Positions 45,936-59,483 of a DNA stretch of 64,000 bases are shown here, piece by piece. The notes under the pieces are model-generated. The model ran no database searches. It was not told the DNA's origin and saw only the letters and a program-made list of their open reading frames with translations. The first letter of the stretch is position 1; each line of letters starts with the position of its first letter. A program made the translations under genes and the position numbers. This stretch comes from an uncultured Clostridia bacterium (GTDB lineage: Bacteria; Bacillota; Clostridia; Christensenellales; UBA1242): assembly GCA_930990975.1 (NCBI GenBank), contig CAKNRR010000001.1, positions 197,756 to 261,755 on the forward strand. Reading direction: 5' to 3'.

Positions 45936-46011
45936 GCTGATGTGGCTCAGTCGGTAGAGCAGTTGATTCGTAATCAACAGGTCGCGGGTTCGATCCCCGC
46001 CATCAGCTCCA
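45936..46011 (+). tRNA. tRNA-Thr (anticodon CGT), CCA encoded
   Basis: GCTGATG...CATCAGC acceptor, GGTTCGATCC T-arm, anticodon loop TTGATTCGTAATCAA, terminal TCCA. Confidence 0.95.
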
Positions 46012-46536: not shown

Positions 46537-47343
46537 CAAACAAAAGACAGATAGATGCACTATGGGACGATAATCCAGTAGATGTTACTTCTGAAGCTAA
46601 TTTTATAATGGAGTATTGCCAATAAGTTAAGAGGAACTTACATGCCAGATAAATATGGCGATGTAATCATTCCCATGACGATTCTTAGAAGATTTGAATG
46701 CTCGTTGGCTCCTACTAAGGTAGCTGTTATTGAAGCGTATGAAAAGAACCCTGTAATGCCTGCGTTGGCTTTGGAAAGGAAGTCTGGATTTCAATTCTAT
46801 AACACGAGCCACTATGACTTGAAAGAACTTCAAAGCGAATCAGATAAGCTCGCTGAGAACTTCAGCAATTACATTGAAGGCTTTTCATCTAACGTTCAAG
46901 ACATCATGAAGCAATTGAAGCTTGCCGATCATATCAAAACGATGGATGAGGGTGGCTGCCTTTTGACTGTTGTAAAAGCTTTCTCGGAGCTTGACTTAAA
47001 CCCAGCGACTTACGATTCCATTAAAATGGGATACATCTTTGAAAACCTGATTGGTCGCTTCTATCAAAACGTGGATGCTGGACAATATTACACTGGCAGA
47101 GACATCATCAAGTGCCTTGTTTCGATTTTGACAGCTGAGGGCAGCGATGATATTTTTGAAGACCATAAGGTTATCACCGTTTGCGATCAGGCTTGTGGAA
47201 CTGGCGGTATGCTTTCAACAGCTTATTCGTATTTGAAACACGTAAACCCATCTGCTGATGTTCGTTTATTCGGTCAAGAGTATATGGGTCCATCTTAGGC
47301 CATCGGACTTGCTGAAATGCTAATCAAAGGACAGGATGCCAAA
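46533..47343 (+). pseudogene. hsdM: hsdM (type I restriction-modification methyltransferase subunit), frameshifted, with an internal stop and 3' truncation
   Basis: SEANFI-[+1]-WSIANKLRGTYMPDKYGDVIIPMTILRRFECSL ... ACGTGGMLSTAYSYLK ... FGQEYMGPS*AIGLAEMLIKGQDAK. Confidence 0.88.
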
Positions 47344-47834
47344 CACCACACTTTACCGAAGCCGACATTAAGGAAAGGTTCGTAAAGGCATACAATCTTG
47401 TGATGTGTAATAAGCAGCAAGTGATAAACGACACTCTTGCTGTAATTGAGATGCTCATGGGAACGGATGAACTCGACCTTGAGATTGCAGAACGTCAAGC
47501 AAAGATAGAAGAGATTAGCAAAGTGGTGTCTGCTATGGTTAGAGAAAACGCAAGAACAGTTCAAGGCCAGATTGCATTTGCTAGAAGATATGACGAACTT
47601 ACAAAGCAGTATGATGAACACAAAGCAGCCCTAGATAAAGCAGTAAAAGAAAAAGCCTACAAGACAGGTAAAGCAACGCAAATGAGAGTTAGTCTTGAAG
47701 CTATGAAACAGGCTGATGATTTTCTTGAAGAATGGTCGGATGAAATGTGGATATTGATGGTTGAAACAGCCACTGTGAACAGAAACAAGACCATCACATT
47801 CCAATTCACGAGCGGAAAAGAGATAACTTTATAG
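47343..47834 (+). pseudogene. C-terminal remnant of a large serine recombinase
   Basis: TPHFTEADIKERFVKAYNLVMCNKQQVINDTLAVIEML ... DDFLEEWSDEMWILMVETATVNRNKTITFQFTSGKEI matches the C-terminal zinc/coiled-coil tail of clostridial serine recombinases; catalytic domain absent. Confidence 0.78.
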
Positions 47835-48038: not shown

Positions 48039-48566
48039 ATGACAACAAAGTTATTTGAAAGGTTAGTTACAAAGTTTTCTATCAAGGTTAATGACCTTGC
48101 TAAGTACTTGGAAATATCAAAAGCTACTATATACAACTATAGAAATTTAGATGATTTTTCTGACATTCCTAATGATAAACAAATGAAGATTTTTTACTTA
48201 TTCGGAAAGGAAAGTGCGGAAGAGTTACAACTTGTGCTTGATGAATCAGACAGCGATTTATTGGCTCAATATATAAATAGAATCTCTAGCATCTTTAAAG
48301 ACAGTGTCCAAGACAAGAAGGACTCTATCGCATCTTTGGAAAGCTTAACAAATGCTGTAAACGAATTGACTCAAGAAAACGTTTCTTTAAAAAGGCAACT
48401 TCTTGCTCTTTCAAAATTTGATAGCGTTGATGAGTTCACTAGAACTATTATCCTTGATAAGGTCGCTAATATCATAACGGGATCAAATAGTGCTTCGATT
48501 CACGAATTCTTAAATTACCTTGATATCTATTCTGCTTATTCTGACAAGAACAAGGCTGCAAAGTAA
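48039..48566 (+). CDS. HTH DNA-binding protein with C-terminal coiled coil; likely operon regulator
   Basis: KVNDLAKYLEISKATIYNYRNLDDFSDIPNDK HTH; heptad-like C-terminal half. Confidence 0.75.
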   Translation: MTTKLFERLVTKFSIKVNDLAKYLEISKATIYNYRNLDDFSDIPNDKQMKIFYLFGKESAEELQLVLDESDSDLLAQYINRISSIFKDSVQDKKDSIASLESLTNAVNELTQENVSLKRQLLALSKFDSVDEFTRTIILDKVANIITGSNSASIHEFLNYLDIYSAYSDKNKAAK

Positions 48567-48580
48567 CAGGAGGTAAGACT

Positions 48581-51500
48581 ATGTCGTATTTATTTTTATC
48601 GTTTGCTGATCACATGGACAGGACCACAAACATAAAGAATGAATTTTATAACTTATCCTTGAATGAACAGTTCAAACTTCTTCAAAAGAGAATTCCGCTT
48701 GATAGACAGTCATGCTCGTTTCAGTCTTTTATCGAGGCTTGCTTTCCTACAGGAATGACAAAGAGATACTACATTTCCTGTCCAAACTTTTTACGTGAAA
48801 AGGAACAGAGGGAAAGTGGTGCTCCTTCATATCTAAGAAACGTCGTTGTAAGACCAGAACTTACTTTAAGCATGAGAAGGTTCCTTCCTGATAACCAGAA
48901 TATTATTCTTGTAGGAGATATCTACGAGAGTAACAAAGCTAAGGTTCTTCAAATAAAAGGTGTTCAATTTATCGATTCATCCATGTCATCTCCAAATGAT
49001 TTAATAGTTAACGCCGAAGCCTGCAGCTCGTTTGGTAAGTCACAAAGCATGAGCAGAATGGGCCAGATGGTTACTTTCAGTGTGTGGACTATTGATAGAG
49101 TTGATATGAGTAACACTCTATTTACGCCTAACTTTGTATATGAATTGATTCAATCATGCTATACAGTTAAGAATCCAGAAGAAATACGTAGAACTTTTGA
49201 AGAGTGGAATCAATACATCAACTTTAGAAAATACTACCTTGATGAACAATCAAAGCGTAATTTCTTATTAGATTCTGCGGAATATATCGAAGCATATGCT
49301 GTTAACAGAAAAGATTATAGAAAGAACTCATCTGTTTATGACGATTATATTTTGGATGGAATTCAAGATTTTACAAAAGGTGAGATGGTCGTATTGTCTT
49401 CAAAAATAGAGGACGCTGAGCCATTCCCATTGGTAAGATTAAATATAGACAGAAACAAGAAATCTTTCTATGAAGCACGTGTAAATAAGCGTGGAAGAAT
49501 GGTTAATGAAGAGGAAAGAAAAATCCGCTCGTTGGCTAGCGATAGTGTATTTATTACTTCAAAAGATCCAGAAGGCAACTCTGATTATAGAGATAGAAAC
49601 GGTAATCTTCAAAGAATCCAATTTGGTGAATTACTAAATGCTGGCTATGCATTAGGGGATAGATTTAGAATCGTTTCCTTTGATATTCAGCCAGAGGAAC
49701 ATCTGGAACAGTTAGAGCACAAATACGAGTCTGATATTGATAGATCATATAAGGCAGTCGATGCCAAATATGAGAAGGTCATCAAAGATGAATTAAATAA
49801 AGCGATTGAAGCTTATAAAAAAGAAATCTTAGATGAAGTCAATAATCAATTGGCAGAACGCAAGAAACAACTGGATAGTTCTCTTGACGATGATGTTGAA
49901 AAGAATACAGACACAGTAATTCTTTCAAAAATCGTAAAGATGAAATCTGAAATTAAGGCCAAATTAACAAAAGAAACAAAGAAAACTAAAGATGAAAAAG
50001 AAAAGGCTTATAAGGAAAGATTAGATGTTTTAATCGAAGAAGCCTATTCCGAAATCGACGTTAAAAATTTATACATAGAAAGAAATTTAAAGATCCTTGA
50101 AGATTTAAAAACATCTCTTATCGCAGCTGGCAAAAGACAAATCAGTCAATATGAAAGTCAGAAGAACACTGAATTAAGAAACAAATATAGAGATGATGTT
50201 AGATCCGAGAAAGTGTCTATTAAAGAGCAATTAGATTCACAATTAAAAGTCGACAAGGAAAAAGTAATAGAAGAGGAAACAATCATCAGATTTTCTCTAT
50301 ACTTCAGACTTGGCGATGCCAATAACGTTATTAGCGATAAACAAATAAAAGCAATCAAAGCATGTAAGTACATTGTTTACGATAACAGAGCTGAAAAGGC
50401 GAAGATTTCTAGACAAGAAACTGCATTGAATAACTTCTATAGTGGATTCGTAAAGAACCCATATCTTTCAACATACCTTTTTAATCCTGAAAGCTTATCC
50501 AGTGTACAAACAGAGTTCAGTGATTGGACATGGTATTTGGAATCATTGAATGAAAAACAAAAAGAGGCAGTAAGAAAGGCGGTATCTAGTAATGGTATCT
50601 TCTTATTACAAGGCCCTCCAGGAACTGGTAAAACACAGGTCATTGCTGAGACAGTTGCTCAGATGGTTAAGAAAGGAAAGAAGGTTCTTATATCGTCTGA
50701 AACTCATAAGGCTATTGATAACGTATTCGAGAGATTACCAAAAATAGCTGAAATTGTACCTATCAGACTTATTCCTTCAAATAATAATAAGAAGGGTGAT
50801 AATGAGTACGATCCGAAGTTCCTCGTCGATAACTTCTATGGAAATATCAGTACGAACATGAAAAAGGCCGTAGACAGATACCGAAACTTCAGAAGGAACA
50901 AGGAAGAATTCTCAGAAACATACGACAAATTAAAACTATTGAAATCCAAAATAGAGAAATCTCAAAAGGTTTTAGATGAGGCAAATAAAGAAATTGCTGG
51001 ATTAGAGTCAAAGGCAAAAGAGCTTAACTCACATATTTCTACTTTAGTTGATTCAAGAGATGATATCCGCATCGAACTGGATGTTTTGAGAAGAACTAAA
51101 CGCCATATTGAGAATGATAATCTAAGACCAGATGAGGATGTAAACACACAACTTATTATTAGATTGCGTGATGACTTAGCTTCTTTATTTGACAAGAATA
51201 TCTTTGTAGACATTGATCTTGGTTTATTAGTTAAGAATATCAACCAGATAAAGATGGACGAGATTGAAAGAGAACTCGCTGTTGTAAATCCTGAATCAAA
51301 CAAAACTATCCTTGAAGTTAAGAGAAGAGAAATAAAGAGCAAAATGGACGCTTGCAAGGACGAATACGATGATGTAATTCCAGAAAAGCAAGATGAATAT
51401 GATGCTTTACGTAAAGAGTTAATTTCTATCAAGAAGCAAATTGATGCAACGACAGATTCTGCTCCGACTGACTTAAAGTTAGGAACTATCTTCAATTGCG

Positions 51501-53116
51501 CATACTTGGTTGCAAATGTTGACTCGATTAAGAGAACCATAGAATCATTGAAGGAACATATCATAGAAAAAAAAGTTCAGTATATTGAGGAAGTCAATGG
51601 ATCACTTAATGCGGTTGAGACTAAATTTAATAACGTTGAAGAGAAAATCGCAGTTCTTAAAAAGCAGATTAAGGGAATTAATGACTCAATCATTGAAATA
51701 CAGGAACGTGACGACGTGCAAGATATCCAAGAGAACAAGGGTAAGTTAGAAACTGAAATCAATAAGTTCTTCAAGGATTTTGAAATTGCAGAACCATACA
51801 ATGATATCGATGAAGCCTTGACAATCATCAAGAGAAGATGGGATGAGCTTGAGAACGATTTTGTACGTAAGGAACAAGAAAATAAAGAGAAGATTCCTAT
51901 GTACGAAAAGATATCTAACTATCTATCTATGGAAGATGTTATCGAAGCCGACCGTAAGGAATACACTAAGGATTTATTTGATAATGCTAATGTATTTGGT
52001 ATCACTTGTACTTCAAATGATAGATTCAGTGGAAGAAATGTCGATGCTTTGTCTGAGTATAATATTGATGACGTTGACATAAAGTCTGTCGGAATTGATG
52101 TGGTAATCATTGATGAGGTTTCAAAATCTAGCTTCATTGATCTGCTTATTCCAATTTTATATGGGAAAACAGTAATTTTGGTTGGTGACCACAGACAATT
52201 GCCTCCAATGTATGAATTCTCTAAATTGAGAGACGATGATTTTGAAGGATTAGATGAAAATATCATCAACAAGGACATAAATAAAAAGTTTACTGCCCTT
52301 TATGAAGAATGCTTCTTCAAGACATTATTTGAGAGAATTCCTGAAAGCTATAAGACGATGCTTGTACAGCAATACCGCTGCCATGAGCATATCATGAATG
52401 TATTTAACCATTTCTATCAAGGTGAGTTGAAACTTGGCTTTGCTGGTCAAAACAACACCAAGAAGCATAACGTTAAGCTTATCTCAAATGGTAGAAGCAT
52501 CATCGAGCCTGATAAACATATCTATTTCGTGGATTGCAAGAAGAACGAAACTCATGAACAAGATTCAACCTCTATGTATAACACTGGCGAGGCTAAGGTT
52601 GTTGCTGAGTTAATCAGAAAACTAAATGATTATTTCAAGCGTAATCCTGATAGAGAAAAACTAAGCATTGGTGTCATCTGTACGTATGGTGACCAAGCAA
52701 GAAGAATAAAAGAAATATTAAAGAGCGAGAAAGTTAAAACAGATGCTTTCAAGACCGATGTAGAAAAGATGATCGTTAGTACGGTAGATGATTTCCAAGG
52801 TGATGAAAGAGACATAATTATTCTTTCAACCGTAAGAAATCCAGAAAATCCTGCTAAGTCAAATCCTGGATTCATTCTTGCTTATCAAAGAATTAACGTT
52901 GCTTTATCCAGAGCTAGAAGAATGCTTGTTATGGTTGGCAATAGAAGATACCTTGAGTCTAAGGGTGTCATTGATTTGCCAGATGTGAATGGTAGAGGAA
53001 ACGATAGAAGAAACTTCAGAGTTTACGAGGAAATCCTGTATACCATCGAACAGTACGGCAAGGTGATAGATGATATCGATGTATTAGAGGACAAGGAGGC
53101 TAGAATAAATGGATAA
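48581..53116 (+). CDS. UPF1/DNA2-like superfamily 1 helicase with large coiled-coil insertion
   Basis: GPPGTGKTQVIAETV (I), LISSETHKAIDNVFERLP (Ia), VVIIDEVSKSSF (II), VGDHRQLPPM (III), VQQYRCHEHIM (IV), STVDDFQGDERDIIILSTVR (V), INVALSRARRMLVMVGN (VI). Confidence 0.92.
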   Translation: MSYLFLSFADHMDRTTNIKNEFYNLSLNEQFKLLQKRIPLDRQSCSFQSFIEACFPTGMTKRYYISCPNFLREKEQRESGAPSYLRNVVVRPELTLSMRRFLPDNQNIILVGDIYESNKAKVLQIKGVQFIDSSMSSPNDLIVNAEACSSFGKSQSMSRMGQMVTFSVWTIDRVDMSNTLFTPNFVYELIQSCYTVKNPEEIRRTFEEWNQYINFRKYYLDEQSKRNFLLDSAEYIEAYAVNRKDYRKNSSVYDDYILDGIQDFTKGEMVVLSSKIEDAEPFPLVRLNIDRNKKSFYEARVNKRGRMVNEEERKIRSLASDSVFITSKDPEGNSDYRDRNGNLQRIQFGELLNAGYALGDRFRIVSFDIQPEEHLEQLEHKYESDIDRSYKAVDAKYEKVIKDELNKAIEAYKKEILDEVNNQLAERKKQLDSSLDDDVEKNTDTVILSKIVKMKSEIKAKLTKETKKTKDEKEKAYKERLDVLIEEAYSEIDVKNLYIERNLKILEDLKTSLIAAGKRQISQYESQKNTELRNKYRDDVRSEKVSIKEQLDSQLKVDKEKVIEEETIIRFSLYFRLGDANNVISDKQIKAIKACKYIVYDNRAEKAKISRQETALNNFYSGFVKNPYLSTYLFNPESLSSVQTEFSDWTWYLESLNEKQKEAVRKAVSSNGIFLLQGPPGTGKTQVIAETVAQMVKKGKKVLISSETHKAIDNVFERLPKIAEIVPIRLIPSNNNKKGDNEYDPKFLVDNFYGNISTNMKKAVDRYRNFRRNKEEFSETYDKLKLLKSKIEKSQKVLDEANKEIAGLESKAKELNSHISTLVDSRDDIRIELDVLRRTKRHIENDNLRPDEDVNTQLIIRLRDDLASLFDKNIFVDIDLGLLVKNINQIKMDEIERELAVVNPESNKTILEVKRREIKSKMDACKDEYDDVIPEKQDEYDALRKELISIKKQIDATTDSAPTDLKLGTIFNCAYLVANVDSIKRTIESLKEHIIEKKVQYIEEVNGSLNAVETKFNNVEEKIAVLKKQIKGINDSIIEIQERDDVQDIQENKGKLETEINKFFKDFEIAEPYNDIDEALTIIKRRWDELENDFVRKEQENKEKIPMYEKISNYLSMEDVIEADRKEYTKDLFDNANVFGITCTSNDRFSGRNVDALSEYNIDDVDIKSVGIDVVIIDEVSKSSFIDLLIPILYGKTVILVGDHRQLPPMYEFSKLRDDDFEGLDENIINKDINKKFTALYEECFFKTLFERIPESYKTMLVQQYRCHEHIMNVFNHFYQGELKLGFAGQNNTKKHNVKLISNGRSIIEPDKHIYFVDCKKNETHEQDSTSMYNTGEAKVVAELIRKLNDYFKRNPDREKLSIGVICTYGDQARRIKEILKSEKVKTDAFKTDVEKMIVSTVDDFQGDERDIIILSTVRNPENPAKSNPGFILAYQRINVALSRARRMLVMVGNRRYLESKGVIDLPDVNGRGNDRRNFRVYEEILYTIEQYGKVIDDIDVLEDKEARING

Positions 53117-55289
53117 GTTTAAATTAGAAACATCATTTCAATTCCCATTTTTCAAATTAAATGAGATAGTTTCGTATTCGGAAGTTAAAAAGCCTTCAGG
53201 TATCGCATACATGCTTTTGGTTCTTATTAACGAGTCAAACGATAAGAATGTTTTGCTATCTCAGTTGTTAGAGAACTTCGGTGTTCCTCATTCTTTGCAT
53301 TATATTTATTCAGACACGATTGCAAATTTGATTTCTCAGGACATTCTAACTACCAGATATGGCGGTTATTATGATCGCAATATGTTTAGCTCTCTTAGAA
53401 TAGGCGATTTAGCCTTCACTCCTAAAGGGAAGAAGATCTTCGCTGAAGAATCAATTCCTACTGGGGTTACAAAAGAAGCAAAAATACCAGTGTATTATGA
53501 TATTGCAATGAGACAGCTCACTTTAGCTATCCCAGCAAGTTTTGAACCTAAGCCATTAATGGATAGTGCTATCACTGAAGATTTTATGGCAAATTTTACA
53601 TGTGATAAGAGTGTGGAAGACTTTATCAATAAAAATAAAGGTGTGAGAATTCCTATTTATGAGAATGGCAAGGTTGTAAAGAACGAGCTAATTAAAAAAG
53701 AGGAAATTATTACCAAAGTCGAAGAAATCTCAAAAGAGAACTGGACTGGAAAATATGACTGCACAGTAGTATTGGAAGGCAACACGCTATCTTTTGAATT
53801 TGAAGAGAAAGCTGTACAAAACTTTTTCGACGTAAACTACACAGGCGAAATGGTAAACAAGGCCATAGGATATAAGAATAAATTCAAGTTTAAGTCAGCG
53901 TATTCAGATGGTTTGGATTTATCAGCGTTTGCCAATAAGGATATTGCAAGCATCATCATTCCAAAGGAAATTGACGATGTTTTGAAGCAAAAAGGACAGA
54001 TGCTTATCACTAAGGGTAACTACAGGGGAAATAACTATTACACAGTGGAAAGTGTATCTGGTCTCCAAAAATACGATCCATCATGTGAGTTCATTGTTGT
54101 AGACCAAGCAGACAACAGGTTTGCTTTCATTCCTGGCATATTTAACTTTAATAATAAGGATCTTGGAATTATATCAATTCCTCTTGTTTTGAGATTAAAG
54201 GTTAGCTCAGAGCAGTTAAAAGAGGTGCTTGAATCCTATGTGAATAACCTTAACGAGTATTCTGAAGATAATTTCAAGACGCTTGTAAGGGTAACTAATG
54301 TGTCTAAGGACTATGCAAAGGCTACTGAAATCATGAGTGGCTATTTGAATAACGATTATGAGAGCAATATAGTTCTTTTAAATGAAATGAAGCCTACAGC
54401 TATGATGAATGCAAATATCATGGCTAAATACAAAGAAATGCTTCAAGACAACTATTCCGCTTACTTGAAAACAGTAACTGAGGATAATTTGGAGACTGTA
54501 TTGAAGATCACAAATACAATTCCTAAGTTCCTTAATATTCCATTAAAGGATGTTATTTCACGCTTGTTTGATAGCTTGAAGGAAATCAAGAACAGGCAGG
54601 AAGTATATGAAACATTGGTTGAAAAGGACTTTGATAAGTCGATAGTCGTTTTATATGTAAACCCTGTTGATGATGCTTTAAGAACAAGAATGGCAACAGA
54701 TAAATCATTATTGGATTTAATCAATTATGATACTTGTATTTCTAAAATGAAGGAACTAACTGGCATTAAGGATTATAGAGAGTACGTATTTGAGGAAGAA
54801 GCCGTTAACAGAGCTGAGTTTAAAAAGACATTCAATACTGCCAAAGGTGTACAAAAAGCGGTTGATTTCTTCAGAGCACAAAATCAAGAGCTATTCAAAG
54901 ATTTTGATGGATTCATGACTTTATTCGGAAGAATCAATGATGATTTCAATATACTAGATGCAGCTTTATCAAATCCTAATAACATAAAGCCTGAGTTAGT
55001 AGAAAAGAAGATCACATCTGGTGACTATCAATTTGTTTTTGTTAATCTTTCTGCAAAGTTGGAGATTATCCTTAAAAACAAATTCAAACTAGATGGGAAG
55101 CTTTCTGATATGTTAAGTGAGGCTAGAAGAAGCGGCGCTATTGAGAGAAACATTGCTACTGATCTTCATGATTTCAGAGAGAATAGAAATGCATATATCC
55201 ATCCTGAAGATAGATCTGCAAACTTTAAAGCAGACGATTTGAGAAGATGGAGCAAAGAAATTTTTGAGTTAGAGGAGGAAAAGAAATGA
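53109..55289 (+). CDS. Large protein of unknown function with C-terminal HEPN-like domain (RNAYIH)
   Basis: Terminal segment VNLSAKLEIILKNKFKLDGKLSDMLSEARRSGAIERNIATDLHDFRENRNAYIHPEDRS fits the HEPN Rx4H pattern. Confidence 0.65.
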   Translation: MDKFKLETSFQFPFFKLNEIVSYSEVKKPSGIAYMLLVLINESNDKNVLLSQLLENFGVPHSLHYIYSDTIANLISQDILTTRYGGYYDRNMFSSLRIGDLAFTPKGKKIFAEESIPTGVTKEAKIPVYYDIAMRQLTLAIPASFEPKPLMDSAITEDFMANFTCDKSVEDFINKNKGVRIPIYENGKVVKNELIKKEEIITKVEEISKENWTGKYDCTVVLEGNTLSFEFEEKAVQNFFDVNYTGEMVNKAIGYKNKFKFKSAYSDGLDLSAFANKDIASIIIPKEIDDVLKQKGQMLITKGNYRGNNYYTVESVSGLQKYDPSCEFIVVDQADNRFAFIPGIFNFNNKDLGIISIPLVLRLKVSSEQLKEVLESYVNNLNEYSEDNFKTLVRVTNVSKDYAKATEIMSGYLNNDYESNIVLLNEMKPTAMMNANIMAKYKEMLQDNYSAYLKTVTEDNLETVLKITNTIPKFLNIPLKDVISRLFDSLKEIKNRQEVYETLVEKDFDKSIVVLYVNPVDDALRTRMATDKSLLDLINYDTCISKMKELTGIKDYREYVFEEEAVNRAEFKKTFNTAKGVQKAVDFFRAQNQELFKDFDGFMTLFGRINDDFNILDAALSNPNNIKPELVEKKITSGDYQFVFVNLSAKLEIILKNKFKLDGKLSDMLSEARRSGAIERNIATDLHDFRENRNAYIHPEDRSANFKADDLRRWSKEIFELEEEKK

Positions 55290-56404
55290 GTCATAAGGTA
55301 ACAGTGGACTTTGAAGGATTAACTATCCAAATTCAATCTCAGTGCGAAACTGCAGCACATTCGTTGTGTAAGATTGATAAGGTTTTGGACAGAATCCATG
55401 AAACTGCAAGTAAATTGGAAACTTCAAAAGTCAAGGAATATGAGGCTTATTTATTGAAGTCTAAGGATCAAATCCAAAAATTAATCAATGAGTTCAATGC
55501 TTCCCTTGAGGAGTATAAGTCATTAAAGCAACAGACCTTTGATATGGATTATAGATATGGTGGTGCCGACAGCAAGGCTTTAGCTGAAAAGTACAATCAG
55601 CTAAACACCACATTAAGAGTGCAAGGGGAGAACCTTGTAAGAACAGTTAATGAATTGACTGGTTCTAAGCTAGAGGTTATAGACCAAATGATAAACGAAG
55701 GCTTGCTAAATGCAGGTCAGGAATCAGCACAAAATCTATTAAACAAGATGAATGGCGTGTTGAATATCTCTCAGTCTGTTATTGAAAAAATAAATCAAAT
55801 TGAAGATGTGTCATTAAGAGAATTGACATATCGTGAAATGGTGAATGAAGCCAATGCTGGACTAGGATTTGATGAATTGGTTTCAAAAGCTCAAGCTGAA
55901 TACGATATACTAGTTGGAAAGAAAACTAGACAAGTAATCGAAGAATGCAAGGCTGAATTAAAAGCCAACGGAGTAGCTCCAGAGGTTGTTGAAAAAGCTA
56001 AGACTGTCGATGAAGCGAACGCAATGATGAATGCTGCGATAACAGATGAAAAGGTCCGTAAGGAAACATTAAAGGTCATCATTAAGGCGATAAAAGAGCG
56101 TGGATTCATTGTCGACACAAAGAAAAACCTTAAAATCGACAAAGAGAAAAATATCGTAAAACTTGTTGCTATGAAGGCTTCAGGTCAAACTGCAGAGTTT
56201 GAAATTCAGCTAAACGGGAAATTCATGTATCACTTTGAAGGTTATGAAGGTTTAGCTTGCAATAAGGATATCACTCCATTTATCGAGGATTTGAAGAACG
56301 TATACGATATTAATATTCTTCACGAGGAAGTGGAGTGGTCAAATCCCGATAAGATCCAAACTCAGAAGTATCAATATGTAAACAAAAATAAAGGCACAAA
56401 CTAA
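55286..56404 (+). CDS. Coiled-coil protein of unknown function
   Basis: ATGA overlap with the upstream gene; long helical heptad-like regions; DUF2997-like C-terminus not identified. Confidence 0.6.
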   Translation: MSHKVTVDFEGLTIQIQSQCETAAHSLCKIDKVLDRIHETASKLETSKVKEYEAYLLKSKDQIQKLINEFNASLEEYKSLKQQTFDMDYRYGGADSKALAEKYNQLNTTLRVQGENLVRTVNELTGSKLEVIDQMINEGLLNAGQESAQNLLNKMNGVLNISQSVIEKINQIEDVSLRELTYREMVNEANAGLGFDELVSKAQAEYDILVGKKTRQVIEECKAELKANGVAPEVVEKAKTVDEANAMMNAAITDEKVRKETLKVIIKAIKERGFIVDTKKNLKIDKEKNIVKLVAMKASGQTAEFEIQLNGKFMYHFEGYEGLACNKDITPFIEDLKNVYDINILHEEVEWSNPDKIQTQKYQYVNKNKGTN

Positions 56405-56416
56405 GGAGGTAGTCGT

Positions 56417-58237
56417 ATGTCATTACAAAATAGTTTTAATAAAATTAGAAGAAACGCTGGTATCAAGAAATGCGTCATGATCGACGGTAATGTTGGTGAT
56501 GTTTATCTTGATGACAAGAATAAAATCGTCACTTTGAGAGAATTCTTAGAGGCTATGTTCAAAGACATGGACTACCAAGATATCGTTTATTGGGACAGAG
56601 TCGAAGGTGCAACTGGTGCCATTGATAAGTTGACTTTAACAGATGAAGTTGAGGTTGAGGGCGACGCTTATGATTTAGGTGATGAGGAAGAAGAAACTCC
56701 AAAGGCACAACAAGGTTTATTCAAGAGCCCTGCTGAAATCCTCAATGTAGTTTATAAGAATGTTATCGACAAGAAAAAGAAAGTCGCATTCATCATCAAC
56801 TGGTCTGAATACCTATTCAGTGCTAACGGGTTATCTGAAGACGAAAGACAAAACATCACGCTTTTAGGTAAGGCATTAAAAGACAGAAAAATTGATTATT
56901 TAAGCTCTGATTGCAATGAGAGCGTTGTAGTAATCATTTTAAATAAAGCTTCTGGCTTACCACTTTCTTTCTATCAAGGAAATCCTGAAGTTGAAATCGT
57001 AACAATTCAAAAACCTGATAGAGAAGAACGTAAGCAAATGGTACAGAAGATTGAAGACTCGTTTGAAGTGCGTTTAAAGAGCGGAACAAGCTCATTATTA
57101 GATAACGAGAATATCGACTGCATCGACATGATGGAAGATTTCACAAACAGGGAAATCATCCAACTTTCTAGAATGTCTAGAAAAGAAGATAAGATGTCTT
57201 TCGATAAGCTTTTCTATCTATTTAAATATGGCGAAAAAGAAAATCCATGGGAAAAGTTAGAGCAAGCTCGTGTAAAGAACATTAAGAAAGAATTAGCGGA
57301 CAGAGTTGTTGGTCAGGATGAAGCAATCGAGAAGATCGAAAAGACTGTCGTTAAGGCTTATATGGGTTTAACTGGCTTGCATAAGACTTCATCAAGATCA
57401 ATGCCTAAGGGTGTATTCTTCTTTGTGGGTCCTACTGGTGTTGGTAAGACTGAATTATCAAAGGCTTTAGCGAAGTTCTTATTCGGTGATGAACAAGCAT
57501 GCATTCGTTTTGATATGTCTGAATATGCACAGGAAAACAGCGATCAGAAGTTAATCGGTGCAGCTCCAGGATATGTGGGATACGAAGAAGGTGGACAATT
57601 AACAAACGCCATAAAAGAACATCCATTCAGCGTTGTTTTATTTGATGAAATCGAAAAGGCTGCTAAGCCAAATCCTAGAATATTAGATATTTTCTTACAA
57701 ATCTTGGAAGATGGTCGTTTAACTGATTCAAAGGGTGAGACTGTATATTTTAGCGATACAATCATCGTATTTACATCTAACTTAGGTGCTAACCAAGTAC
57801 AAGCTAGTTCAGATAAAGAAGGCGTAGCAAAGGAATTTATCCGCATCGTCAAGGAATACTTCGACCAAGAGTTAAAGAGACCTGAATTGTTAGGACGTAT
57901 TGGCTACAACAACATCGTTCCGTTTAACTTTATTCAAGATAAGGAATTCCAATACAAAATCTGCAAATCAAAATTAAAACCAGTAATTCGTGGTATCGAA
58001 GAAAAGTACAAGCTTGATCTTGAGTTTGAAAAAGAAATGGATGCAATCAATTACATTCTTTCTGCGGTAGATTCTGCAAAAGGTGGTCGTGATATCTTAA
58101 ATGCAATTAACGATAGATTACTTGATCCATTAGCAATGTTCTTATTTGAAAACAAGGATGATCTTCGTTCTTTAAGAGGAAGCAAGATTATCACTAAGGT
58201 AACAAAGGAAGGATTCTCTTTTGAGTTCTCTGAATAA
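56417..58237 (+). CDS. AAA+ ATPase: degenerate N-terminal AAA-like domain plus ClpA/B-D2-like AAA+ module
   Basis: [22 protein letters not shown] (Walker A), [13 protein letters not shown] (Walker B), SNLGANQV, RPELLGRIGYNNIVPF (Arg finger region). Confidence 0.88.
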   Translation: MSLQNSFNKIRRNAGIKKCVMIDGNVGDVYLDDKNKIVTLREFLEAMFKDMDYQDIVYWDRVEGATGAIDKLTLTDEVEVEGDAYDLGDEEEETPKAQQGLFKSPAEILNVVYKNVIDKKKKVAFIINWSEYLFSANGLSEDERQNITLLGKALKDRKIDYLSSDCNESVVVIILNKASGLPLSFYQGNPEVEIVTIQKPDREERKQMVQKIEDSFEVRLKSGTSSLLDNENIDCIDMMEDFTNREIIQLSRMSRKEDKMSFDKLFYLFKYGEKENPWEKLEQARVKNIKKELADRVVGQDEAIEKIEKTVVKAYMGLTGLHKTSSRSMPKGVFFFVGPTGVGKTELSKALAKFLFGDEQACIRFDMSEYAQENSDQKLIGAAPGYVGYEEGGQLTNAIKEHPFSVVLFDEIEKAAKPNPRILDIFLQILEDGRLTDSKGETVYFSDTIIVFTSNLGANQVQASSDKEGVAKEFIRIVKEYFDQELKRPELLGRIGYNNIVPFNFIQDKEFQYKICKSKLKPVIRGIEEKYKLDLEFEKEMDAINYILSAVDSAKGGRDILNAINDRLLDPLAMFLFENKDDLRSLRGSKIITKVTKEGFSFEFSE

Positions 58238-58766
58238 ATTCAATGTTGCATACATAAAGCTATGCACAAAAACTGAAGGACCTTTCAATAGATGTTGTAT
58301 TTGGTTTCAGGGCTGCAATTTAAACTGCAAAGGTTGTTGCAATAAAGACCTTCAAGCCTTGGTTCCTAACCACATCGTTGATTTTGATAAGCTTGTTGAG
58401 ATTGTAAAAGAAGCTAAGGATCAATTCGGAATAGAAGGAATCACTCTTAGCGGTGGTGAACCATCACTTCAAAGGGGACTGATTGACTTCAATAATACTA
58501 TTCATGAATTAGGTCTTGGAATTATTATGTTCTCTGGTAAGAAGAAAGAGACTTTAAATCCAGAGCTTGTGAATTCAGTTGATTTGCTTATTGATGGTCC
58601 TTTCATTGAATCAGAACTAGATACCGATAGAGTTTTGCTGGGATCTAAAAATAAGAACCTTACTTTTATAACAGACAGATATCTAGCCGAGTCTGATTAT
58701 TTTAACAACCCTGTTGCTATTGAAGAAATTACAGCAGAGGACTATATATTCATTAATGGAGATTAG
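58221..58766 (+). CDS. Minimal NrdG-like radical SAM protein
   Basis: IWFQGCNLNCKGCCN (CX3CX2C), ITLSGGEPSLQ, DLLIDGPFI. Confidence 0.9.
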   Translation: MSSLNKFNVAYIKLCTKTEGPFNRCCIWFQGCNLNCKGCCNKDLQALVPNHIVDFDKLVEIVKEAKDQFGIEGITLSGGEPSLQRGLIDFNNTIHELGLGIIMFSGKKKETLNPELVNSVDLLIDGPFIESELDTDRVLLGSKNKNLTFITDRYLAESDYFNNPVAIEEITAEDYIFINGD

Positions 58767-58768
58767 TC

Positions 58769-59269
58769 ATGGACAAGAAAAGAATAGAAAAAGAAATGAG
58801 AGAGTTGGAATTAAAGATTCATTATCACTTCAATGATATCTCTTGGCTTGCTAAGGCTATGGGCTCCATAAAGATTGAAGTTCCAGGACAAGGCAAAAAT
58901 GGCTCAGAATATTCAAATGAAGGTCTAGCCACTGTGGGCGATACGATGCTTAAATCTGTAATTGCTGACCATCTTTATAGAACTAAGAACATTAGAACTA
59001 AAGGTGAGATAACAACTGCGAAGAGTGGCTTAGAGAATAATTCGACTATGCATAAGTTGATGCTTGGCGAAGGTTTGATATCTTATTCGTACAATGATCT
59101 TCATTTTTACAAAGATCCTAATATTCCAGACCATGAGAAAGTCGTATGTAAGGAACATGATCCATATGTGGAAGCGATAGTTGGTGCAGTTTATTACGAT
59201 TCCAACTACGACACAACAAGAAGATGGATATTGAAATGGCTTATTCCATTGTTGGAAAGATACAAATAA
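58769..59269 (+). CDS. Minimal RNase III-fold protein without a dsRNA-binding domain
   Basis: SNEGLATVGDTMLKSVIADHLY ... KGEITTAKSGLENNSTMHKLM ... HDPYVEAIVGAVYYDSNYD aligns to the RNase III signature. Confidence 0.82.
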   Translation: MDKKRIEKEMRELELKIHYHFNDISWLAKAMGSIKIEVPGQGKNGSEYSNEGLATVGDTMLKSVIADHLYRTKNIRTKGEITTAKSGLENNSTMHKLMLGEGLISYSYNDLHFYKDPNIPDHEKVVCKEHDPYVEAIVGAVYYDSNYDTTRRWILKWLIPLLERYK

Positions 59270-59282
59270 AGAAAGGACCTTT

Positions 59283-59483
59283 ATGGCAAGAAAACTAAAA
59301 GTATATGAGCAATCAATGAGTGGCAGCAGCTACACTCAGGTTCCAACCATTATTCTAAAAGGACAGTGGTTAAAGGCTGCAGGTTTCGAGGCTGGTCAAT
59401 ATGTCGAGGTTGTATGTGAAGGAAATAAGATCATTCTTTCAAAAACAACAGCACCAGAACTAACAACTAATAAGAGTTATTAA
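59283..59483 (+). CDS. SymE-family (AbrB-like) toxin-family protein
   Basis: RKLKVYEQSMSGSSYTQVPTIILKGQWLKAAGFEAGQYVEVVCEGNKIIL. Confidence 0.88.
   Translation: MARKLKVYEQSMSGSSYTQVPTIILKGQWLKAAGFEAGQYVEVVCEGNKIILSKTTAPELTTNKSY

Follow-up and report, generated by a model that had tools for sequence, protein, structure and literature searches.

A predicted HEPN ribonuclease encoded in a Mokosh-related five-gene helicase cassette of an uncultured Clostridia bacterium

Mokosh type I, the described bacterial system closest to the locus studied here, is defined with a PLD-like (or NERD) nuclease domain (PMC10952713), and degradation of viral transcripts has been ascribed to Mokosh (PMC11291487). 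We analysed a 64,000-nucleotide stretch of DNA from an uncultured Clostridia bacterium (contig CAKNRR010000001.1, positions 197,756 to 261,755; hereafter the window), which contains a cassette of five genes encoding, in order, a Upf1-like helicase (HEL), a 726-residue protein (HEPNp), a coiled-coil protein (CC), a ClpB-like AAA+ ATPase (CLP) and a small radical SAM protein (RSAM). HEPNp is probably the nuclease subunit of a mobile, Mokosh-related helicase-RNase system, likely directed against phage, in which a HEPN domain would be the effector.

The cassette resembles Mokosh type I in that directly after the Upf1-like helicase gene comes a second gene, the first ~140 residues of which appear to be distant homologues of MkoB, and in some cases this second gene also carries a nuclease domain (PLD in L041; L- and G-numbers are our handles for loci and genomes). 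It differs in having HEPN or PIN where Mokosh has a PLD-like nuclease, in adding the three conserved genes CC, CLP and RSAM (five genes against two), and in its helicases, which group apart in the tree from the MkoA proteins of L038, L039 and L042. A profile scan detected no PLD or NERD domain in any cassette protein of the window. Assignment to canonical Mokosh was rejected, given five genes that are conserved together and no PLD or NERD nuclease; because the two-gene composition and this nuclease are not found, we class the cassette as a Mokosh-like helicase-nuclease kind and not as Mokosh. Our search of the open literature, with most subscription papers and preprints outside its reach, found no description of the five-gene set.

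The second point of comparison is the HEPN superfamily, with DUF4145 and HEPN_RiboL-PSP as the nearest Pfam families, with which HEPNp shares an R-N-x3-H motif at a helix end in a predicted helical bundle. HEPNp differs from these families in scoring below their curated cut-offs and in being fused to an MkoB-like module within a helicase/AAA+/radical SAM cassette, a fusion that a term search of the HEPN survey PMC3710099 did not find. The ten neighbouring proteins scanned include no nucleotidyltransferase that could be the partner in a HEPN-MNT pair.

The C-terminal domain of HEPNp

The gene and its parts are placed as follows.

53109..55289, + strand: HEPNp, 726 residues, second cassette gene (ATG at 53109 to stop at 55289, frame open throughout)
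53109..53543, + strand: N-terminal module, residues 1-145 (hhalign with PIN-type second-gene proteins and, distantly, MkoB)
54894..55289, + strand: predicted C-terminal HEPN domain, residues ~596-726 (AlphaFold2 model, PDB fold matches, sub-threshold DUF4145 and HEPN_RiboL-PSP matches)
55176..55205, + strand: RENRNAYIHP, residues 690-699, with the predicted catalytic R-x4-H (R693, N694, H698); R690 is invariant too

A sequence-only reading of the window had noted RNAYIH at nucleotides 55185-55202, near the C-terminus of HEPNp, and taken it for the signature of a HEPN ribonuclease. Letters and position are as described in the 726-residue open reading frame, where the motif occupies residues 693-698. 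The bare Rx4-6H pattern is weak evidence for HEPN, as its count is not significant: 5,000 shuffles of HEPNp contained it 0.41 times on average, the real protein contains it twice, and the fraction of shuffles with as high a count was 0.058. RNxxxH occurred at 0.006 per shuffle in the same number of shuffles. Because the bare pattern is not unusual for a protein of this composition, we weighed the motif through its conservation. RxxRNxxxHP is kept in all ten cassette homologues, the most distant of which are merely 22-28% identical overall to HEPNp, and the alignment leaves R690, R693, N694 and H698 all invariant, including the Arg and His on whose conservation the HEPN reading had been staked. 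The homologues comprise L002-L008, from a scan of species genomes (Bacilli-type contigs of metagenome-assembled genomes), and L035, L072 and L043, from profile searches (one an IMG/VR contig).

Conservation is concentrated at the two ends of the protein. Across ten full-length HEPNp-type proteins, 27 of the 56 invariant columns fall in residues 1-132 and 15 in residues 595-726, whereas the 462 positions between them (133-594) are poorly conserved and hold 14. Given this clustering, HEPNp is built from two conserved modules with a fast-evolving stretch between them. The earlier remark that the ~600 residues before RNAYIH contain no motif thus describes the middle well but not the first ~140 residues, which profile comparison with PIN-type proteins and, more weakly, with MkoB identifies as a conserved module.

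AlphaFold2, given ten sequences, predicted the C-terminal domain as a helical bundle (pLDDT 86.5, pTM 0.75) with long helices at residues 599-621, 640-657, 680-697 and 708-722; in this model the motif sits at the end of helix 680-697, that is, of the third core helix. The top 13 PDB fold matches found by Foldseek are HEPN-superfamily structures (2hsb, MtlR 6kcr/3brj, 1wwp, 5yep, 7bxo, 6m6w, the 7ae-series and 1ylm), and HepS (9oij) stands at rank 16. YutE (1ylm) and MtlR are counted as HEPN in PMC3710099. The nearest structures are overwhelmingly of the fold that had been anticipated, with E-values that are not significant, and the predicted model supports HEPN by the concordance of its matches and not by any single decisive one.

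Family profiles point the same way. DUF4145 (PF13643, HEPN clan) matches 8 of the 10 aligned members (best 5.9e-6) and HEPN_RiboL-PSP (PF18735) matches 7 of 10; the domain of HEPNp itself reaches 16.2 bits with DUF4145 against a cut-off of 23.1, a shortfall that concerns these Pfam families and not the HEPN superfamily as a whole. A HEPN domain is very likely present at the C-terminus of HEPNp, and its motif suggests that it is catalytic. A fold search with full-length HEPNp has no meaning, because only the C-terminal part is modelled well. PDB sequence searches with the whole protein and with the HEPN domain gave chance matches only, a viral fold library contained no informative match, and neither PADLOC nor NCBIfam has a model for HEPNp or CC.

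The same kind of domain was also seen outside the cassettes. In L036, which is not a cassette member and served only as a distant HEPN row, an unrelated XRE-type helix-turn-helix (HTH) protein of 625 residues (L036:9346-11223, genome G897) ends in such a HEPN domain with the motif RNDIVH; it is possibly a stand-alone HEPN regulator or toxin.

The nuclease position in related cassettes

Searches with CLP and with HEL, which gave identical records, located the same five genes in the same order on proteobacterial plasmids, namely those of Photobacterium (pCECT9189-1), Moellerella (pW18-2-a), Polaromonas (pPNAP02), Acinetobacter (pNDM1_010055) and Leisingera (pBMJM1_5). The order HEL-X-CC-CLP-RSAM, where X is the second gene, thus recurs across five plasmid types and two Bacillota genomes (G319 and G413). 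In six of these seven sister cassettes, including that of G319, the second gene ends in a PIN_4 domain (E 3e-6 to 7e-24), and all four of its acidic residues (D568, E597, D650 and D671) are invariant in the five plasmid PIN proteins. The PIN-type cassettes are homologous to the HEPN-type in HEL, the N-terminus of the second gene, CC, CLP and RSAM; they differ in their C-terminal PIN_4 domain, which takes the place of HEPN, and in that the RNase III-like accessory gene RN3 of the window was not seen in them. A megablast search of E. coli genomes for close copies of the Moellerella cassette was negative, and a tblastn search of plasmids with the 726-residue HEPNp returned no matches.

The shared scaffold is evident at the N-terminus of the second gene. 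Over ~140 residues, the HEPN-type proteins and those with PIN or no nuclease are homologous by hhalign (P 98.1, E 1.2e-13), whereas unrelated cassette alignments, used as negative controls, gave P 0.1-0.2. Compared with the N-terminus of Mokosh MkoB, the two types reached P 89.8 and 89.2, the latter for the HEPN type. The MkoB profile PDLC03922 matched weakly, at 1.1e-5 to 0.002 for PIN-type proteins and up to 0.0065 with the nuclease-less one included. The PIN and HEPN types are thereby tied more closely to each other than to MkoB. The second gene in Aulosira, which is MkoB-like, has a PLD domain at its end. Since the N-termini are homologous and the C-terminal domains differ, a single scaffold at the second-gene position appears to bear PLD, PIN or HEPN, or no nuclease at all. 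That the position of HEPN is held by PIN in related cassettes suggests that the nuclease part is interchangeable, and lends further support to the ribonuclease function originally proposed for HEPNp.

All HEPN cassettes form one clade both in the CLP tree and in that built from the C-terminal region of the helicase (100/99). In the CLP tree, PIN versions lie on more than one branch outside this clade and L021, the G413 cassette, is paired with one of them; the outgroup consisted of kinase-type clusters, and the root and the placement of the long branches L033 and L041 are uncertain. Within this sample, the pattern is most simply read as PIN being ancestral, with a single exchange for HEPN and a single loss.

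Three PIN-type cassettes have extra radical SAM genes beside them (L029:1410-3478, L032:15236-16222 and L071:14221-17230), of the SPASM type in L029 and L071 and accompanied in L032 by a thymidylate-kinase-like gene. These genes are possibly a second effector or a modification module.

Cassette genes, mobility and distribution

The other genes of the window cassette and its accessory genes are the following.

48039..48566, + strand: HTH protein, 175 residues, probable regulator (homologues in several HEPN-type cassettes)
48581..53116, + strand: HEL, SF1 Upf1/IGHMBP2-like helicase, 1511 residues (AAA_11 5.7e-33, AAA_12 3.5e-44, PADLOC MkoA 7.7e-99)
55286..56404, + strand: CC, coiled-coil protein, 372 residues, with a conserved C-terminal domain (YxGxxC...NPD; alignment of 11 homologues)
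56417..58237, + strand: CLP, AAA+ ATPase with a ClpB-D2-like domain and its own N-terminal ~280 residues (AAA_2 3.1e-51)
58221..58766, + strand: RSAM, small radical SAM protein, NrdG-like, carrying CxxxCxxC (Fer4_12 3.2e-23, Radical_SAM 6.4e-11)
58769..59269, + strand: RN3, RNase III-like accessory protein, 166 residues (Ribonuclease_3 2e-8)

The genes are tightly packed: the start of HEPNp (53109) overlaps the stop of HEL (53116) by 8 bases, the start of CC (55286) overlaps the stop of HEPNp (55289) by 4, and RSAM starts at 58221, before the stop of CLP at 58237. The order HEL-HEPNp-CC-CLP-RSAM is conserved in L002-L007, L035, L043 and L072. Among PADLOC profiles HEL is nearest to MkoA, matching PDLC03920 (7.7e-99) and PDLC03921 (2.9e-82), in part through the generic helicase core, and falls below the cut-off of TIGR00376. 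CLP is the most conserved part of the cassette, with Walker A and B motifs invariant across the alignment of homologues and 90-99% identity among near relatives. The C-terminal domain of CC has an invariant Tyr, Gly and Cys (YxGxxC) and an NPD; it is speculation that CC is a candidate substrate of RSAM.

RN3 accompanies only some HEPN-type cassettes (the window, L002-L004, L006 and L072, but not L005 or L007). It keeps the equivalents of E38, D45, E65 and E117, and inspection by eye shows Ala in place of E41 and, at D114, an Asp that is shifted (HDPYVEA); because this pattern recurs in its relatives, RN3 activity is uncertain. Directly after RN3 lies a gene for a SymE-like toxin of 66 residues (59283-59483; PF08845, 7.2e-11). 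An HTH homologue immediately precedes the helicase gene in L002, L003, L035 and L043, and none lies upstream in L004-L007; in L005-L007 the place of the HTH gene is taken by a protein of 309-335 residues (L005:4163-5125, L006:4537-5466 and L007:4087-5094), which had no Pfam match in the two copies scanned (L005 and L006).

The cassette lies downstream of tRNA-Thr(CGT) (45936-46011). Relatives of the same genus retain the flanking genes on both sides with no cassette between them, and the distance from the tRNA to the next shared gene is 2.9 kb in L065 versus 15.6 kb in the window. Just upstream of the cassette, 47400-47834 encodes what is left of a large serine recombinase, its C-terminal part; a reading as an HsdR fragment was considered and rejected. 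The recombinase is intact at the equivalent place in L043. Beside the remnant in the window, a truncated type I restriction methylase (HsdM, 46642-47298) is present as an N-terminal fragment, and in L002 (2834-4744) a recombinase remnant forms an in-frame fusion with a prophage tail protein. A search for att-type direct repeats bracketing the island found none. By its context, namely plasmids, serine recombinases and a tRNA-adjacent site that is empty in relatives, the element appears mobile.

The distribution is sparse. The CC profile recovered the cassette from two genomes in each of three samples, which comprised 391 genomes of the class, 379 of the phylum and 81 of one family; the reference genome is one of the two each time. 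Single-sequence and profile patterns of the 726-residue protein found no relatives in viral contigs, and the L043 cassette was recovered in the viral-contig search through the CC profile.

Proposed function, alternatives and related clusters

We propose that the MkoB-like N-terminal module docks HEPNp to the cassette and so would couple the nuclease to a Upf1-like helicase that may recognise or remodel foreign or aberrant nucleic acid, while assembly, gating or modification of the complex would fall to CC, CLP and RSAM. Judged by its family, the HEPN domain would be a metal-independent ribonuclease acting through R693 and H698, probably as a dimer. Once activated, it may cut phage transcripts, or host RNA or tRNA as an abortive response; an RNA-cutting model fits the degradation of viral transcripts ascribed to Mokosh. 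A tentative extension of this proposal is that the cassette represents a defence family for which the searched literature has no description. It would be a machine of five genes whose C-terminal RNase is exchangeable (PIN for one branch, HEPN for another), sits on a common MkoB-like scaffold and is gated by ATP-driven remodelling and radical-SAM-dependent modification. Two unrelated RNase folds at one cassette position amount to a natural experiment, from which it would follow that the conserved parts sense and gate and the exchanged part kills. If the cassette is anti-phage, Mokosh-like helicase systems would act on RNA through interchangeable nucleases, and an AAA+ remodeller and a radical SAM enzyme would be tied to defence in a form open to testing gene by gene.

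Several observations weigh against an anti-phage system with a HEPN effector. The best Foldseek probabilities against PDB HEPN proteins are 0.84-0.85, with a best E-value of 0.46 and none significant; HEPNp alone stays under the Pfam cut-off for every HEPN family, and it has no direct match to the MkoB profile. In L021, the second gene is shortened to 470 residues and has no recognisable nuclease, so that the nuclease may not be indispensable. Because the restriction gene upstream of the window cassette is only a fragment, the argument from a defence island is weak. The missing Foldseek and Pfam significance would also suit a coincidental motif in some other helical bundle, an explanation that is hardly credible in view of motif invariance at 22-28% identity, the lead of HEPN structures in the fold ranking and the sub-threshold matches of most members to two HEPN families. 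Unlikely, but deserving more weight, is a genuine HEPN domain that is non-catalytic in the cell and serves dimerisation or RNA binding while other subunits, RN3 or the helicase, act. Some HEPN families lack the catalytic residues according to PMC3710099, an RNase III-like gene lies in the same operon, and L021 does without any C-terminal nuclease. Nevertheless, the invariant R690, R693, N694 and H698 are the pattern of an active HEPN, RN3 is missing in L005 and L007, and in related cassettes the equivalent position is occupied by a PIN domain whose acidic residues are intact.

Other explanations accept the ribonuclease and assign the cassette another role. In eukaryotic RNA decay, Upf1 paired with SMG6 combines helicase and PIN RNase activities, and a Upf1-like helicase beside a PIN or HEPN RNase parallels this pairing. 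The cassette might then be a machine for RNA surveillance or stress response, a bacterial analogue of Upf1-SMG6 nonsense-mediated decay, as the extreme conservation of CLP would also allow. We consider this rather improbable, since the sparse, patchy distribution and the plasmid and recombinase context fit a mobile conflict system better than housekeeping, and the helicase is similar to the defence helicase MkoA. HEPN and PIN are also classical toxin folds of toxin-antitoxin modules; a small HTH gene is often found ahead of the operon, and the window cassette is followed by the SymE-like gene. Yet it is very unlikely that the cassette is a toxin-antitoxin-like module that stabilises its carrier element with one partner as antitoxin: a protein of 726 residues in an operon of 5-7 genes with a helicase, an AAA+ ATPase and a radical SAM protein exceeds a two-gene module, and no MNT nucleotidyltransferase partner is present.

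CLP and RSAM also occur away from the helicase-nuclease pair. Full-length homologues of CLP (~36-42% identical) and homologues of RSAM recur in a second kind of cluster (L022-L025 and L034), together with Ser/Thr kinases, a PP2C phosphatase, FHA/zinc-ribbon proteins and coiled-coil proteins. In contrast to the cassettes, these clusters have no adjoining helicase-nuclease pair of the cassette kind, and L034 has a DUF4011 Hhe/PDC-S37-like helicase instead. CLP and RSAM together look like a portable regulatory module.

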